Below are positions 25,517-30,500 of a DNA stretch of 32,271 nucleotides, one piece after another (within the stretch, counting starts at the first letter, position 1; each line of letters begins with the position of its first letter). Source of the DNA: a virus; IMG/VR virus record IMGVR_UViG_3300025138_000006, positions 1 through 32,271 of that record. One strand, given 5' to 3'. A model generated the notes under the pieces. That model was not told where the DNA came from and did no database searches. It saw nothing but the letters and a program-made list of their open reading frames with translations. The position numbers and the translations under genes were made by a program.

Positions 25517-25617
25517 TTTGATTTCTCCCTACACGAAAAACAAACGTAATAAGTACGCATGCTTTTTACTTTCATTAAATATCTTGCGTTTGTATTGCAT
25601 ACATCACACTTTCTCAT
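25384..25617 (-). CDS. Zinc-finger protein (77 aa), overlaps the nuclease gene
   Basis: 77 residues with C4-x2-C7 and C26-x2-C29 (KCDVCN and VCFSCR) in the first 30 residues, then a basic Ser/Arg/Lys-rich tail. Its ATG overlaps the stop of the upstream HTH gene (ATGA), so coupled translation supports it. Its last 133 bases are also read in another frame as the N-terminus of the nuclease, so the basic tail may be only loosely constrained. Probable DNA- or RNA-binding regulator; unproven. Confidence 0.55.
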   Translation of the reverse strand: MRKCDVCNTNARYLMKVKSMRTYYVCFSCREKSNWQATLAEKEHTMKTSLSNYSKRGRSKRNANRYRELWEGNTKET

Positions 25618-25859
25618 TTAACTTTAAGCTTACAATCTAAAGCTTGAACCCAATATAAAAGCATATAACCTGATGGCAGACGTTCATATCTTTCCCATTT
25701 ACCTATGAGCGAATTTGCACAACCTATTTGAAATGCTAAAGCCTCCTGAGATATTTTAAGTTTGTTTCTTTTTTTTACTAAGGAAGTAACTAATTCAATC
25801 CAGTTTGGATCAACTGGTATTGGTACTGCCCGGTACTGAAATATCTGATCTGACTGCAT
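25614..25859 (-). CDS. XRE-type helix-turn-helix protein (81 aa)
   Basis: 81 residues with a canonical helix-turn-helix from about 25 to 72 (LKISQEALAFQIGCANSLIGKWERYERLPSGYMLLYWVQAL). Ribosome site AAAGG lies about seven bases upstream of the ATG. It lies second in the cluster transcribed away from the repressor, in the place of a lambda cII/cro-type regulator, and its start overlaps the preceding gene by 50 bases. Likely a transcription regulator of the lysogeny or early-right genes; which promoter it acts on cannot be seen. Confidence 0.75.
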   Translation of the reverse strand: MQSDQIFQYRAVPIPVDPNWIELVTSLVKKRNKLKISQEALAFQIGCANSLIGKWERYERLPSGYMLLYWVQALDCKLKVK

Positions 25860-26065: not shown

Positions 26066-26722
26066 GTGTTATATTGTGCTTTTATTAATGATGATTTAAT
26101 TATTGAATCTGGATATGGTGTAATAATGCAGAATACCATAGATGAACAAGAACGAAAAGCATTAAAGGTTTGGATGCGAGGAGTAATCCAAAACCAAAAA
26201 ATGAGTGCGTATGAGTGGGCAACCAAAGCAGGTACTAGTCCTACTAACATTACACGTTTTCTCAATGGCAATGCTAAGTCTATACCATCTTCCAGAACTG
26301 TCGCTAAATTGTCCCATGTATCAGGAACAGAGCCTACCAAAGTAACTGTTGCTGATAGCTTAACCAGAACACTTGAGGTGTTTAATACGAAAGGGAACAG
26401 AGTGCGATATGTAAATGTTTATGGTATAGAGGGAAAAGCGTTAGCTTTAGAACTTGATACACCTAGTGGGTATGGTACTGCCGGGATAAATAAAGGCGAT
26501 ACTATAATAGTAGAACAAGATGTAAAGATAGAAGAAGAAGATGTGTTTGCATTTCGTTTTGAGTATAGAGTTTTAATAGGACAAAAGGTTGGGAATAAAA
26601 TTATTCATCACTCTTTGTGGGAGAAACATAAATTGTTTAAAGACGTTGAGATTATTGGTAAAGTAATTCAATGTATTAAATCGTTTAATGTTCCTAAAAA
26701 AGATTTCACTGATATGGTTTAA
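26066..26722 (+). CDS. cI-like repressor, HTH plus S24/LexA-like C-terminal domain
   Basis: 218 residues from GTG 26066, chosen because AAGGGGA lies five bases upstream; ATG 26126 would give a 198-residue form and is also possible. The helix-turn-helix is at about 46-84 (SAYEWATKAGTSPTNITRFLNGNAKSIPSSRTVAKL). From about 115 on it looks like an S24 peptidase-type domain (GINKGDTIIVEQ at 140-151). The catalytic pair is not clear: the usual SM motif reads TPSGYGTAG and the usual V-K-R strand reads VLIGQKVG, so self-cleavage may be lost. It is the only leftmost plus-strand gene beyond the late arm and should be the lysogeny master repressor. Confidence 0.8.
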   Translation: MLYCAFINDDLIIESGYGVIMQNTIDEQERKALKVWMRGVIQNQKMSAYEWATKAGTSPTNITRFLNGNAKSIPSSRTVAKLSHVSGTEPTKVTVADSLTRTLEVFNTKGNRVRYVNVYGIEGKALALELDTPSGYGTAGINKGDTIIVEQDVKIEEEDVFAFRFEYRVLIGQKVGNKIIHHSLWEKHKLFKDVEIIGKVIQCIKSFNVPKKDFTDMV

Positions 26723-26771: not shown

Positions 26772-26790
26772 TGTGTGTTATTATGTGTAA
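26772..26790 (+). repeat. Left arm-type repeat of attP
   Basis: TGTGTGTTATTATGTGTAA, which corresponds to 27044-27064 as TGTGTGTTA plus a 3-base spacer plus TGTGTAA or TGTGTGTAA. The pair lies on either side of the tRNA-Val core in the same orientation, about 180 bases before and 25 bases after it. This is the arrangement of arm-binding sites for the N-terminal domain of tyrosine integrases. Confidence 0.5.
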
Positions 26791-26972
26791 AGATTAAATA
26801 GTCAATGCATTAAGAAACAATATAAAACGACAAACTTATTGAAAGTAATGCGATAATGCACAACGCAGTTTTTAAAAAAGGATTGCGTTTTTTCCTTGGT
26901 TTACATAGAGTTATTAAATTAATTTTAGCGTATCGTGGGATGTGACCAAAGACCATTTCGTTTAAACTCCTC

Positions 26973-27020
26973 CGTTTACACCGAGAATGTCGGCGGTTCG
27001 AGACCGTCACCGCCCACCAT
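26973..27020 (+). other. attP: attP core: 3' half of tRNA-Val(UAC)
   Basis: From 26975 the sequence reads as the 3' half of a tRNA: anticodon loop TTTACAC with anticodon TAC, then CGAGA (stem), ATGTC (variable), T-stem GGCGG with TTCGAGA loop and CCGTC, acceptor strand ACCGCCC, discriminator A, and CCA ending at 27019. Upstream of about 26973 the anticodon stem no longer pairs and there is no D-arm, so this is not a gene but a copy of the host tRNA end. Integration into the host tRNA-Val gene would restore it. The integrase lies 62 bases away. Confidence 0.85.
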
Positions 27021-27043
27021 TTACAGAGCATAGACAACCTAAG

Positions 27044-27064
27044 TGTGTGTTAAAATGTGTGTAA
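27044..27064 (+). repeat. Right arm-type repeat of attP
   Basis: TGTGTGTTAAAATGTGTGTAA, partner of 26772-26790 (see there). It lies 24 bases after the tRNA end and before the integrase stop codon, so after integration it would lie between the restored tRNA gene and the integrase. Confidence 0.5.
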
Positions 27065-27081
27065 CTTTTTAAATTTACCAT

Positions 27082-28113
27082 TTATTTCACGTTATTCATA
27101 GCTAGTTTTTTATGTTGAGTTGATATACCTACATAACGTTGTAACGTTTTTAAGTTAGTCCATCCACCTAATTGTCTCAAAGTCTCCATATCACCACCCG
27201 TAGTTAAAAACGTGCAGGCAAAATGATGTCTCCAATCATGTATAGTAAAGTGTGGTATCGTAGCTTTACCAAGTGACCTTAACTCTTCATTAGCTTTTAT
27301 TACTGCAGTCTTATGAGACTTAGCAGGACCTTGTTCAGCATATGGTTTCCCATATTTATTTACAAATACATATTTTTCATGTCTCCAACCCTCTTTAATC
27401 AACGCTTCTTTAAATCTAGGATGCATAGGAATAAAATTATTTTTACTTTGTTTAGTGTTTGTAAAAGGTAATCGTATTAACTCTTCATCTATTAAACAAT
27501 CATGTATCTCTAATAAACGTGCTTCACCTTTCCTAAACCCATGGTAAGCAACACCTATTCCCCACGTTTTTAACCATGGTTGATAATGTTTGAATAACAT
27601 TTCTCTTTGATCTACTGACAACCATATAACTTTTTGATTATCTACATGACGTTTAGGTATTGTTAAACAATCGGGCGTATCTTTAGCTACAACTTTATAT
27701 CCAGAGACTTTAAGTATAGCTTGGAAGACATCTCTTATTCTATTGTATGATGCAGGCTTATAGTTTTTCATAAACTTAATAGTGAATGTATTCCAATCAG
27801 CTAAGTTTATTTCATATATATTTGTGTTACGAAATACTCTTAACATATTATCTGCACACCATAGGTCACGCTTACTTCTTGTCTGAACCTTTGCCCAAGT
27901 GATAACTGCAGAACTAAAAGGGATAGCAAGTTTGCTATCTCCTTTAAGTAGTTCGATTGCTTTTCGTTCTATATCTCTTACGACTTCTTCTGCATCTCGT
28001 TTCTTAACACGTCTCGTGCTTTCACGTACTGAGATGAATCGATCTCCGAAGTATACTTTACCCTCGACTTGGTAAAACTTTGATCCTTTTCGTTTGAATA
28101 TAGGTAACGACAC
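27082..28113 (-). CDS. int: Tyrosine-type site-specific integrase
   Basis: 343 residues. The N-terminal arm-binding-like part (1-60: FKRKGSKFYQVEGKVYFGDRFISVR) is followed by a SAM-like core-binding domain (about 62-150) and a catalytic domain with R194 (HGFRKGEARL), K221 (FTNTKQSKN), H292-x-x-R295 (IHDWRHHFA), W318 in place of the second His (LGGW) and the nucleophile Y327 (QRYVGIS). Complete and likely active. The start is GTG 28113 with GGAGAG nine bases upstream, inside the excisionase-like gene. It is the last gene of the early operon and lies next to attP, so it should integrate the phage into tRNA-Val. Confidence 0.93.
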   Translation of the reverse strand: MSLPIFKRKGSKFYQVEGKVYFGDRFISVRESTRRVKKRDAEEVVRDIERKAIELLKGDSKLAIPFSSAVITWAKVQTRSKRDLWCADNMLRVFRNTNIYEINLADWNTFTIKFMKNYKPASYNRIRDVFQAILKVSGYKVVAKDTPDCLTIPKRHVDNQKVIWLSVDQREMLFKHYQPWLKTWGIGVAYHGFRKGEARLLEIHDCLIDEELIRLPFTNTKQSKNNFIPMHPRFKEALIKEGWRHEKYVFVNKYGKPYAEQGPAKSHKTAVIKANEELRSLGKATIPHFTIHDWRHHFACTFLTTGGDMETLRQLGGWTNLKTLQRYVGISTQHKKLAMNNVK

Positions 28114-28304
28114 TGCAAACTCTCCATAAGTAATTCATAATTTTCTTGTTTAAATCTCCATGCATGCCCCACTTTCATGTAGGGAATGTGATTTAATTTG
28201 CAAAGCTTTTTTAATTTACCTACTGAAGTTTGTAGTTCTCCTGCAATATCTTCTATAGCAATAGTAGGTATAATAGTTTCAATATTAGAATGGGATTTCA
28301 TCAT
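27978..28304 (-). CDS. Excisionase-like winged-helix/MerR-type DNA-binding protein
   Basis: 108 residues. The region 15-62 (AIEDIAGELQTSVGKLKKLCKLNHIPYMKVGHAWRFKQENYELLM) is an HTH_17-type winged helix as in phage excisionases: IEDIA start, P-Y-M-K-V-G turn and W-R-F wing. The remaining basic C-terminus (about 65-108) is read through the first 136 bases of the integrase gene in another frame. Lambda int/xis also overlap. The ATG follows GAGGAG, which lies inside the SSB-like gene. Expected to direct excision. Confidence 0.75.
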   Translation of the reverse strand: MMKSHSNIETIIPTIAIEDIAGELQTSVGKLKKLCKLNHIPYMKVGHAWRFKQENYELLMESLQCRYLYSNEKDQSFTKSRVKYTSEIDSSQYVKARDVLRNEMQKKS

Positions 28305-28766: not shown

Positions 28767-29348
28767 CTACCTCCATCCATTATTGTTAGACGTTTTAGTT
28801 TCTTTGTTTTTATTAGGATCATTCTCTGCATCACTAGCTAAATTAGCATCATCATCTGAAGCTAATCCCATGATAGCCTGCAAAGCATATCTTTTTGCAT
28901 AGGTGATAGAACTACCCATAGCTTGAGCATCATCTTGTTTACCTTGCTTAATTAATACGGGAACTTTACTTACTAATGTTGCTTCATCATTTTTATGAGA
29001 GACAGTAGTTTCTACATATATATCTAGATGAACTCTTTGTTTATTTTCTCCATCATTAAGTAATGTATTTTCAAACTTAACCGCTTGTGAAAATGACAAT
29101 CCAAAATCAGCACCATGATTGCAGGCATTAATAACACTAGTTAAATCAGCGTAACTATTTTTAAAGAATGGGTTCTTACTACTTTTAATTGCTGATATAT
29201 TAAGTTGTTGAAACATAGACATTGCTTCGTTAAGTGATTTACATTCAACATTTTTTTTTGTAGTATCTGAATTCATATGATTTCCTATCGTATGAACGGG
29301 GCTAGTTTCGTTGTGGGGATTAGTCCCATTTTTATTTTGCGTTGGCAT
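28767..29348 (-). CDS. ERF-family single-strand annealing protein
   Basis: 193 residues from ATG 29348 (AGGAG eight bases upstream, overlapping the preceding gene by 17 bases). A second start, ATG 29276, also has a good site (TAGGAAA) and gives 169 residues beginning MNSDTTKKN. The core (SLNEAMSMFQQLNISAIKSSKNPFFKNSYADLTSVINACN, then MGSSITYAKRYALQAIMGLASDDDAN) is diagnostic of ERF-type recombinases. Works with the YqaJ exonuclease as a RecA-independent annealing pair, for recombination or for circularising entering DNA. Two usable starts may give two forms. Confidence 0.88.
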   Translation of the reverse strand: MPTQNKNGTNPHNETSPVHTIGNHMNSDTTKKNVECKSLNEAMSMFQQLNISAIKSSKNPFFKNSYADLTSVINACNHGADFGLSFSQAVKFENTLLNDGENKQRVHLDIYVETTVSHKNDEATLVSKVPVLIKQGKQDDAQAMGSSITYAKRYALQAIMGLASDDDANLASDAENDPNKNKETKTSNNNGWR

Positions 29349-29637
29349 ATTGTTTCTCCTGCTTTTCTTGTTTAGTTAATTTAGTTTTAAAAAATCCATC
29401 ATGTTGTGGGTTCAATGCCATGAACAACCGAGCATAAAAAGCTATGTAATTATTATTGATTTTATAATCGGGATCATTAGTTTCTATTGCGGTTTCATAT
29501 CTGATACGCCCAATAACTAACCAATGACTTAGATGTTTGGCACCTCTATTAATGGCTATGTTAGTGTACTTTTCAAACTCTTTATATACACTTGGATTAG
29601 CTTTATGAAATGCCCAGAACTCTTGTTTCGTAGTCAT
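29332..29637 (-). CDS. Conserved small phage protein of recombination region (101 aa)
   Basis: 101 residues: FWAFHKANPSVYKEFEKYTNIAINRGAKHLSHWLVIGRIRYETAI and NNNYIAFYARLFMALNPQHDGFFKT. This arrangement (FW-FHKANP, R-IRYET, NNNY-A-YARLF, HDGFF) is one I recall in many phages beside recombination and replication genes, with no known function. AGGAG lies seven bases before the ATG. Coded between exonuclease and annealing protein, so a DNA metabolism role is likely. Confidence 0.72.
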   Translation of the reverse strand: MTTKQEFWAFHKANPSVYKEFEKYTNIAINRGAKHLSHWLVIGRIRYETAIETNDPDYKINNNYIAFYARLFMALNPQHDGFFKTKLTKQEKQEKQYANAK

Positions 29638-29645
29638 AAAAACTC

Positions 29646-30500
29646 CTATCTTATGTTGAATCTTACACCTGCTTTGGTGCGTTTAATTGACAGTGAACTA
29701 TTAAATACTTCTCGTTCATTGTCTGCGAGCATGCTTTTAAGATCCGCTTTTACTTTGTTGTGGTTGTCATGCTCTACCTTTGAAGAAATAAATTTCTCCG
29801 CTAGTTCTGTGAAATGATTTTCTTTGCTTGCATCTCTTGCAACCAAGTCATCAATAGCAATGCTATCAACAACCTTTAATGTTCTATCGGGTATGTTAGC
29901 AACGGGTTCTTCTCCCGATATAACTAACTTCCAAAAGTCTTTTAATACCGGGATCATCCTATGTATTTCAGCTTCATTCCTGCTAATCTTAGAACAAGTC
30001 CATTCATTACCTTGGATAACTGAGAAATACATAGAGTCTAAATCTGCAACAAACATATATAATTGTAGTTGCGGAGTGTAATATAAGACTTGATCTTGAA
30101 ATGATTTGTATGAGTTTACATGTTTACACTCAACACCTACCTCACTTAGATTACCCATCTCATTTAAAACAACACCATCAAGTGTACCTTTTAATGACAA
30201 ACCCTCGTAATCTTTCATAGCTTCTACTTGATATGCACATTGCTTTTCATACTGTTGCTCGAACCATTTAATATTAAAAGCTTCTGTTGCTACACCTAAT
30301 TGTACTCTGAAAATATCAGACAAATCTTTTGGTTGTGTCTTGCCCGTTTTCTCTAGCCATAACTCATGCCAATTACCTTGCATAATTTTGACTGCATCTG
30401 AGCCACCAATATAACCCATCCTCCAATGTGACTTTGCACCATTAGAATTAATATAATTTTTACCTATAGTGTGTTGTGGTTTTTGTTGTGGTTGTGACAT
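29646..30500 (-). CDS. YqaJ/lambda-Exo-type recombinase exonuclease
   Basis: 284 residues with the PD-(D/E)xK pattern of the YqaJ family: GYIGGSDAVKIM (29-40), VATEAFNIKWFEQQY (E73), LKGTLDGVV (D108), VGVECKHVN (E124, K126) and YYTPQLQLYMF (140-150). A 5'-3' double-strand exonuclease of this type resects ends for the annealing protein coded downstream. The ribosome site AGGAGA is in the common GATAGGA leader. The N-terminal segment HTIGKNYINS resembles the leader region of the ERF gene. Confidence 0.9.
   Translation of the reverse strand: MSQPQQKPQHTIGKNYINSNGAKSHWRMGYIGGSDAVKIMQGNWHELWLEKTGKTQPKDLSDIFRVQLGVATEAFNIKWFEQQYEKQCAYQVEAMKDYEGLSLKGTLDGVVLNEMGNLSEVGVECKHVNSYKSFQDQVLYYTPQLQLYMFVADLDSMYFSVIQGNEWTCSKISRNEAEIHRMIPVLKDFWKLVISGEEPVANIPDRTLKVVDSIAIDDLVARDASKENHFTELAEKFISSKVEHDNHNKVKADLKSMLADNEREVFNSSLSIKRTKAGVRFNIR

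Follow-up and report, generated by a model that had tools for sequence, protein, structure and literature searches.

The viral DNA analysed here, a stretch of 32,271 nucleotides that we call the window, carries what we read, with a probability of about 0.83, as the attP site of a temperate podovirus that targets the tRNA-Val(UAC) gene of SAR116-order bacteria, uses an arm-held integrase and has a translated gene of 48 amino acids inside the site. A tRNA half with arm-type sites is a well-known form of attP, and the site is ordinary apart from the embedded gene, which was overlooked in the first reading of the sequence. It encodes a small membrane protein that is previously undescribed and conserved in related phages. 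The features are collected in Table 1.

Table 1. Features of the attP region and its neighbouring genes, in window coordinates.
Feature	Position	Strand	Basis
P-arm candidate arm-type site pair, TGTGTGTTATTATGTGTAAAG	26772..26792	+	direct repeat, recurrence in relatives
P'-arm candidate arm-type site pair, TGTGTGTTAAAATGTGTGTAAC	27044..27065	+	direct repeat, recurrence in relatives
attP core, 3' half of tRNA-Val(UAC)	26973..27019	+	47 bp, identical to host attB
tRNA trailer kept in phage, TTTACAGAGCATAGA	27020..27034	+	13/15 identical to trailer of Caspian SAR116-order MAG G004
Microprotein, 48 aa, C-terminal transmembrane helix, MVFGHIPRYAKINLITLCKPRKKRNPFLKTALCIIALLSISLSFYIVS	26810..26956	-	comparison with relatives, helix prediction
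Shine-Dalgarno GGAGGAG of microprotein gene	26967..26973	-	touches first base of core
Tyrosine integrase (int), 343 aa, GTG start	27082..28113	-	catalytic residues conserved in alignment
Probable excisionase, small HTH_17-like protein	27978..28304	-	overlaps int start; weak match, below Pfam cut-off
Probable lysogeny repressor	26066..26722	+	HTH_3-like; PHROG transcriptional repressor
HTH_3 protein, Cro-like candidate	25614..25859	-	HTH_3 match

The tRNA 3' half reads CGTTTACACC...CCGCCCACCA (in full, CGTTTACACCGAGAATGTCGGCGGTTCGAGACCGTCACCGCCCACCA), with the anticodon loop TTTACAC at 26975-26981 (anticodon TAC) as the probable crossover region. A 3' half running through CCA to 27020 had been predicted here; the half and its CCA are present, and the CCA ends one base earlier, at 27019. 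ARAGORN detected no complete tRNA in the window and the 5' half of tRNA-Val is absent, as the original prediction had it, and the integrase ORF, which runs towards the tRNA half, indeed stops 62 bp from it. The bases upstream of the core are CTCCTC in the phage and GCATCT in the host 5' stem, so identity begins in the last part of the anticodon stem. The phage trailer is conserved in most related phages. Eight related viral contigs have the same core, position and arm pattern, the integrases of relatives with this attP layout being 50-84% identical to that of the window, and every tRNA-Val phage contig examined was in the attP form, with half a tRNA. An exact partial tRNA thus lies beside an integrase gene with its other half missing, and a plausible host has a complete tRNA gene that matches the core (see below). 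The exact core, the host match and the recurrence in relatives together identify a tRNA-targeted attP of known kind. A 14/18 repeat at 26893-26910 was considered as a second core and rejected: it falls within the microprotein ORF and does not vary with the tRNA from cluster to cluster. In another cluster (L081-L085) the attP core after int is the reverse complement of a tRNA-Thr 5' half, not the usual 3' half.

The two arms are direct repeats, identical at 15 of their first 17 bases. Only two mismatch-free matches to the arm motif occur in 32 kb, namely the arms themselves; allowing three mismatches adds two chance-like matches. Shuffling the attP region reached 15/17 in 26/1000 shuffles, which makes the repeat alone modestly unusual, and we take it as real because it recurs in nine loci rather than on the window statistics. 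In 9/9 attP loci compared, a P/P' pair matching at 13-16 of 17 positions was found at the same places. The shared arm sequence differs between families (GTGTGTTA or GTGTAGTA), and the arms within one phage are still alike. Such a pair, recurring in place while its sequence drifts, is as expected of integrase arm-type sites, and the repeats predicted on both sides of the tRNA half are thereby borne out. As judged by sequence and recurrence, paired arm-type sites flank the core as for a lambda-type (heterobivalent) integrase, and the protein itself has the corresponding catalytic domain (Pfam PF00589, E 1.6e-18), with R194, K221, H292, R295, W318 and Y327 invariant in the integrase alignment. 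Its N-terminus has no Pfam match, yet is conserved in the alignment. The overlap of the putative excisionase gene with int also occurs in Hafnia phage Meifeng.

For the host, 45 bases of the core (TTTACACC...CCACCA) were scanned across 84,980 species. The search for the core in bacterial tRNA-Val genes, which the original prediction had proposed, returned the exact 45-mer in 16 species-level genomes. Of these, 15 belong to a single order, SAR116, several of whose members are so titled; the sixteenth is a Hyphomicrobiales MAG. ARAGORN found a complete tRNA-Val(TAC) in 15 of the 16 matches, the remaining one being cut by the sequence end. All whole host copies start with GGGCGGT and have the stem-loop TCTCG-TTTACAC-CGAGA, and the acceptor GGGCGGT and loop TTTACAC foreseen for the host tRNA are found in all 16 matches wherever the sequence reaches that far. 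In the nearest host genome, the Caspian MAG (G004), the match extends beyond CCA, over 62 bp at 97%, and five other genomes of the order are two bases off the core, in the variable loop. The host is very probably a SAR116 bacterium; the attachment site predicts the bacterial order rather than a species. One related contig (L020) has two compensatory changes in its core that convert a T-stem G-C pair of the window core to A-T. A pattern allowing A-T matched only the G-C form within the host order, and L020 likely corresponds to an unsampled host tRNA variant.

Integration at tRNA-Val(UAC), as originally predicted, is upheld by the host tRNA match but not by prophages next to that gene. With cut-offs of E 1e-10 and 1e-15, neither the integrase protein nor a 10-member profile found integrase relatives in 136 genomes of the host order. 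IMG/VR loci with a whole tRNA-Val were scanned with integrase and ORF profiles, and among the 80 listed of 115 loci none had the whole tRNA-Val joined to this integrase. Altogether no attL, attR or prophage at tRNA-Val was found in the genomes and loci searched, a result that is evidence neither of integration nor of a different target; the anatomy of the site argues strongly for integration at tRNA-Val. Across 385 genomes of the class, a 12-member integrase profile had six distant matches. Two of these, in alphaproteobacterial genomes, are related integrases beside a whole tRNA-Gly (L142, G468:C34) or a tRNA-Gly 3' half (L144, G144:C549); neither a second junction nor the microprotein was found at either, and they are possible integrated relatives.

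The lack of prophages in the 136 genomes would also fit a phage that integrates at tRNA-Val without forming stable lysogens. T7-like marine cyanophages provide the precedent, with int and attP in tRNA-Leu and integration without lysogeny (PMC8776855). Like the window they are marine podoviruses in which int is followed by a tRNA-half attP, whereas their host and tRNA are others and the window also has repressor-like genes. We regard this reading as unlikely: repressor-like and HTH genes lie next to attP, and the 16 host records with the core come from single cells or metagenomes, as assemblies that are usually incomplete.

The microprotein gene occupies the space between the core and the P arm, downstream of int and in the same direction, starting just past the core and ending just before the P arm. 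Its GGAGGAG lies ten bases before the ATG, and one helix is predicted confidently, at residues 26-47. Seven representatives of the microprotein had no significant match to a Pfam or PHROGs family, tblastn of the ORF against annotated phages matched only the tRNA sequence, and titles and abstracts of the open-licence literature contain no description of it. On the plus strand a terminator-like hairpin with a T run lies inside the gene (26862-26889). Transcription from the repressor gene could stop there, short of crossing attP; the hairpin sequence is not kept in L020.

Comparison with relatives suggests that the frame is translated. In seven tRNA-Val phages it has exactly 48 codons, without gaps and with a ribosome-binding site in the same place. 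Between the window and L020, 29% of synonymous and 4.5% of nonsynonymous sites differ (pS 0.294, pN 0.045). Substitutions in the closest pairs fall on third positions in 37 of 63 cases in group A, the tRNA-Val phages (p = 3e-5), and in 69 of 123 over ten pairs overall (p = 2e-7). Seven integrase clusters, differing in tRNA and in orientation, have a homologue at this position, and the same protein accompanies other tRNAs in L070/L071/L124, L073, L075-L080, L081-L085 (where the core is the reverse-complement tRNA 5' half) and L087/L088 (tRNA-Gly). The C-terminal 37 residues align without gaps as C-x4-K, then C-[IV]-x-A and a membrane helix to the end. When a cluster was left out of the training, the profile still recovered it at E 1e-8 to 1e-17, as against 0.008 or worse for reverse-strand controls. 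A hydrophobic segment is present in 24/24 ORFs, with the charge pattern typical of a membrane-anchored protein. In L073, L075, L081 and L087/L088 the frame begins at an ATG on the int side of the core and therefore runs through the tRNA half.

Ten further clusters (L089-L131) have an ORF that starts at the integrase stop or within 7 bases of it, mostly in an ATGA overlap, and that is read through a tRNA-Thr or other tRNA half in the same frame and has a hydrophobic helix. Homology of these ORFs to the window ORF is not established: full-profile matches covered mainly the membrane segment and overlapped the control range. Among 65 loci with enough sequence only L032 is without such an ORF, and that of L102 is interrupted by Ns.

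Part of the conservation appears to be at the DNA level. Two cysteine codons are invariant between clusters (TGT 13/13, TGC 13/13), and the alanine codon of the second motif is GCA in 11/11. Between-cluster identity is 0.50 at third positions, compared with 0.54 at first and 0.57 at second positions. Invariant codons and high third-position identity are both features of DNA-level constraint, which suggests that the segment also carries overlapping protein-binding sites; these would plausibly serve an excisionase or host factors, by analogy with the lambda P arm. In the window (26853-26900) and in L062-L088, TGTAAA-N3-AGG and TGCATT-NN-TGCA keep the TGT, TGC and GCA codons invariant.

The same two motifs invite the stronger claim that the conserved stretch is P-arm DNA with excisionase, IHF-like or extra integrase sites, in which the open frame is incidental. 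The invariant TGT and TGC codons and the between-cluster third-position identity speak for it, as do the L032 attP, which has no ORF and still has ATGCATTAATGCA, and the chance of 0.002-0.09 that each ORF alone would be open. We judge it improbable, a little more so than integration without lysogeny. It leaves unexplained the third-position excess within clusters, a length that stays at 48 codons, the accompanying ribosome-binding sites, a frame that is maintained across halves of different tRNAs, and the charge and hydrophobicity pattern of a membrane-anchored protein in 24 of 24 ORFs. A gene layer and a DNA-site layer can be true together, and we favour the view that the segment codes for a protein and has DNA sites overlapping the coding sequence.

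The portal, major capsid, tail and internal virion proteins of the phage are podovirus-like. Its nearest isolate is Pelagibacter phage EXVC031P Hodr (34 kb), with 60% identity in the portal and 53% in the capsid protein; Hodr is absent among the integrase matches listed. The virus record is 32 kb and the window has a GC content of 35.7%. The kinship with Hodr would favour another host group, such as SAR11. Structural genes travel between hosts, however, and none of the records titled SAR11 or Pelagibacter among the 84,980 species has the exact core, whose matches are concentrated in SAR116 (15/16), so a host outside SAR116 is quite improbable. That the half is what remains of a decayed phage tRNA, without a role in integration, as the presence of only half a tRNA might suggest, is already contradicted by the comparisons and can be dismissed: 47/47 bases are exact beside int and between arm repeats, the half is conserved in the eight related contigs, and other clusters have halves of other tRNAs in its place. 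Elsewhere on the minus strand the window encodes a recombination module of an ERF single-strand annealing protein and a YqaJ exonuclease (28767-30500) and an ORF resembling, by eye, ArdC-type antirestriction or ssDNA-binding proteins (804-1691).

In the model we propose, the integrase would recombine the tRNA-Val(UAC) gene of a SAR116-order bacterium with attP, exchanging strands near the anticodon loop. The layout suggests that, as for the lambda integrase, pairs of arm-type sites flanking the core would hold it in place. The phage-carried 3' half would restore the tRNA next to int. The predicted attL, on the int side, consists of the host tRNA-Val 5' half followed by phage core and trailer, and the predicted attR of phage CATTTCGTTTAAACTCCTC, core and host trailer. 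Between int and the small gene the minus strand showed no terminator-like site; in free phage DNA, transcription of int could thus continue into the small gene, and the two may share a transcript. Integration would move the small gene to the far prophage end, behind host DNA and away from int. The start codon of Val-type phages lies beyond the core, so their coding sequence would be uncut by integration and only the link to int lost; in clusters with the start codon before the core, integration would also replace the gene start. The product, positively charged before its C-terminal helix, should sit in the inner membrane.

The most likely consequence, at about even odds, is that this C-tail-anchored protein is made only before integration or after excision. 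It may act in the lytic branch, or in membrane sensing or superinfection exclusion. More tentatively, and at somewhat less than even odds, a membrane microprotein gene of marine phages that spans or abuts attP may be switched off by integration and on by excision, and so report the integration state. With the same reserve, the phages that carry such a gene may form a widespread family, in which it often starts at the integrase stop and is translated through the tRNA half.

Phage lambda is the prototype of the tyrosine-integrase attP with arm-type sites. A tRNA-targeted attP of a tyrosine-integrase phage with arm-type sites is known from mycobacteriophage Boilgate (PMC10865867). The present site shares with this type a tRNA 3' half as a core of ~45 bp, paired arm sites on both sides and restoration of the tRNA. 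It differs in that attP lies downstream of int, a small gene occupies the P arm and the target is a SAR116 tRNA-Val, and in that integration is deduced here from sequence. Host prediction through integrase and att is an established method, by which marine phages were linked to SAR116 in 2013 (PMC3861242). The groups G16 and G18 described there resemble our case in the reasoning and the host group and, roughly, in genome length and GC content, with G16 averages of 35.5 kb and 35.2%; unlike here, the passages on them mention no gene inside attP.

The nearest precedent for a coding sequence in attP is the repressor system of mycobacteriophage BPs, in which immunity depends on integration and the repressor is shortened at its C-terminus (PMC4557955). 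In both cases a coding sequence overlaps or abuts attP and integration changes, or here would change, its product or expression. The embedded gene of BPs is the repressor, whereas here it encodes an unrelated small membrane protein linked to int and the repressor-like gene ends outside attP. The phage therefore falls outside the BPs type.

Through its attachment site an uncultured marine phage is tied to the SAR116 order, and the exact junctions that reads would show can be predicted. The embedded gene matters more than the attachment site itself. One would not expect a coding sequence to be kept in attP across integrases as little as ~30% identical, with different tRNAs and in both tRNA orientations, given that the core already has to serve as a tRNA and as a recombination site. 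Should its expression depend on integration, the mycobacteriophage repressor system would have a counterpart in ocean phages, a second kind of switch coupled to integration.
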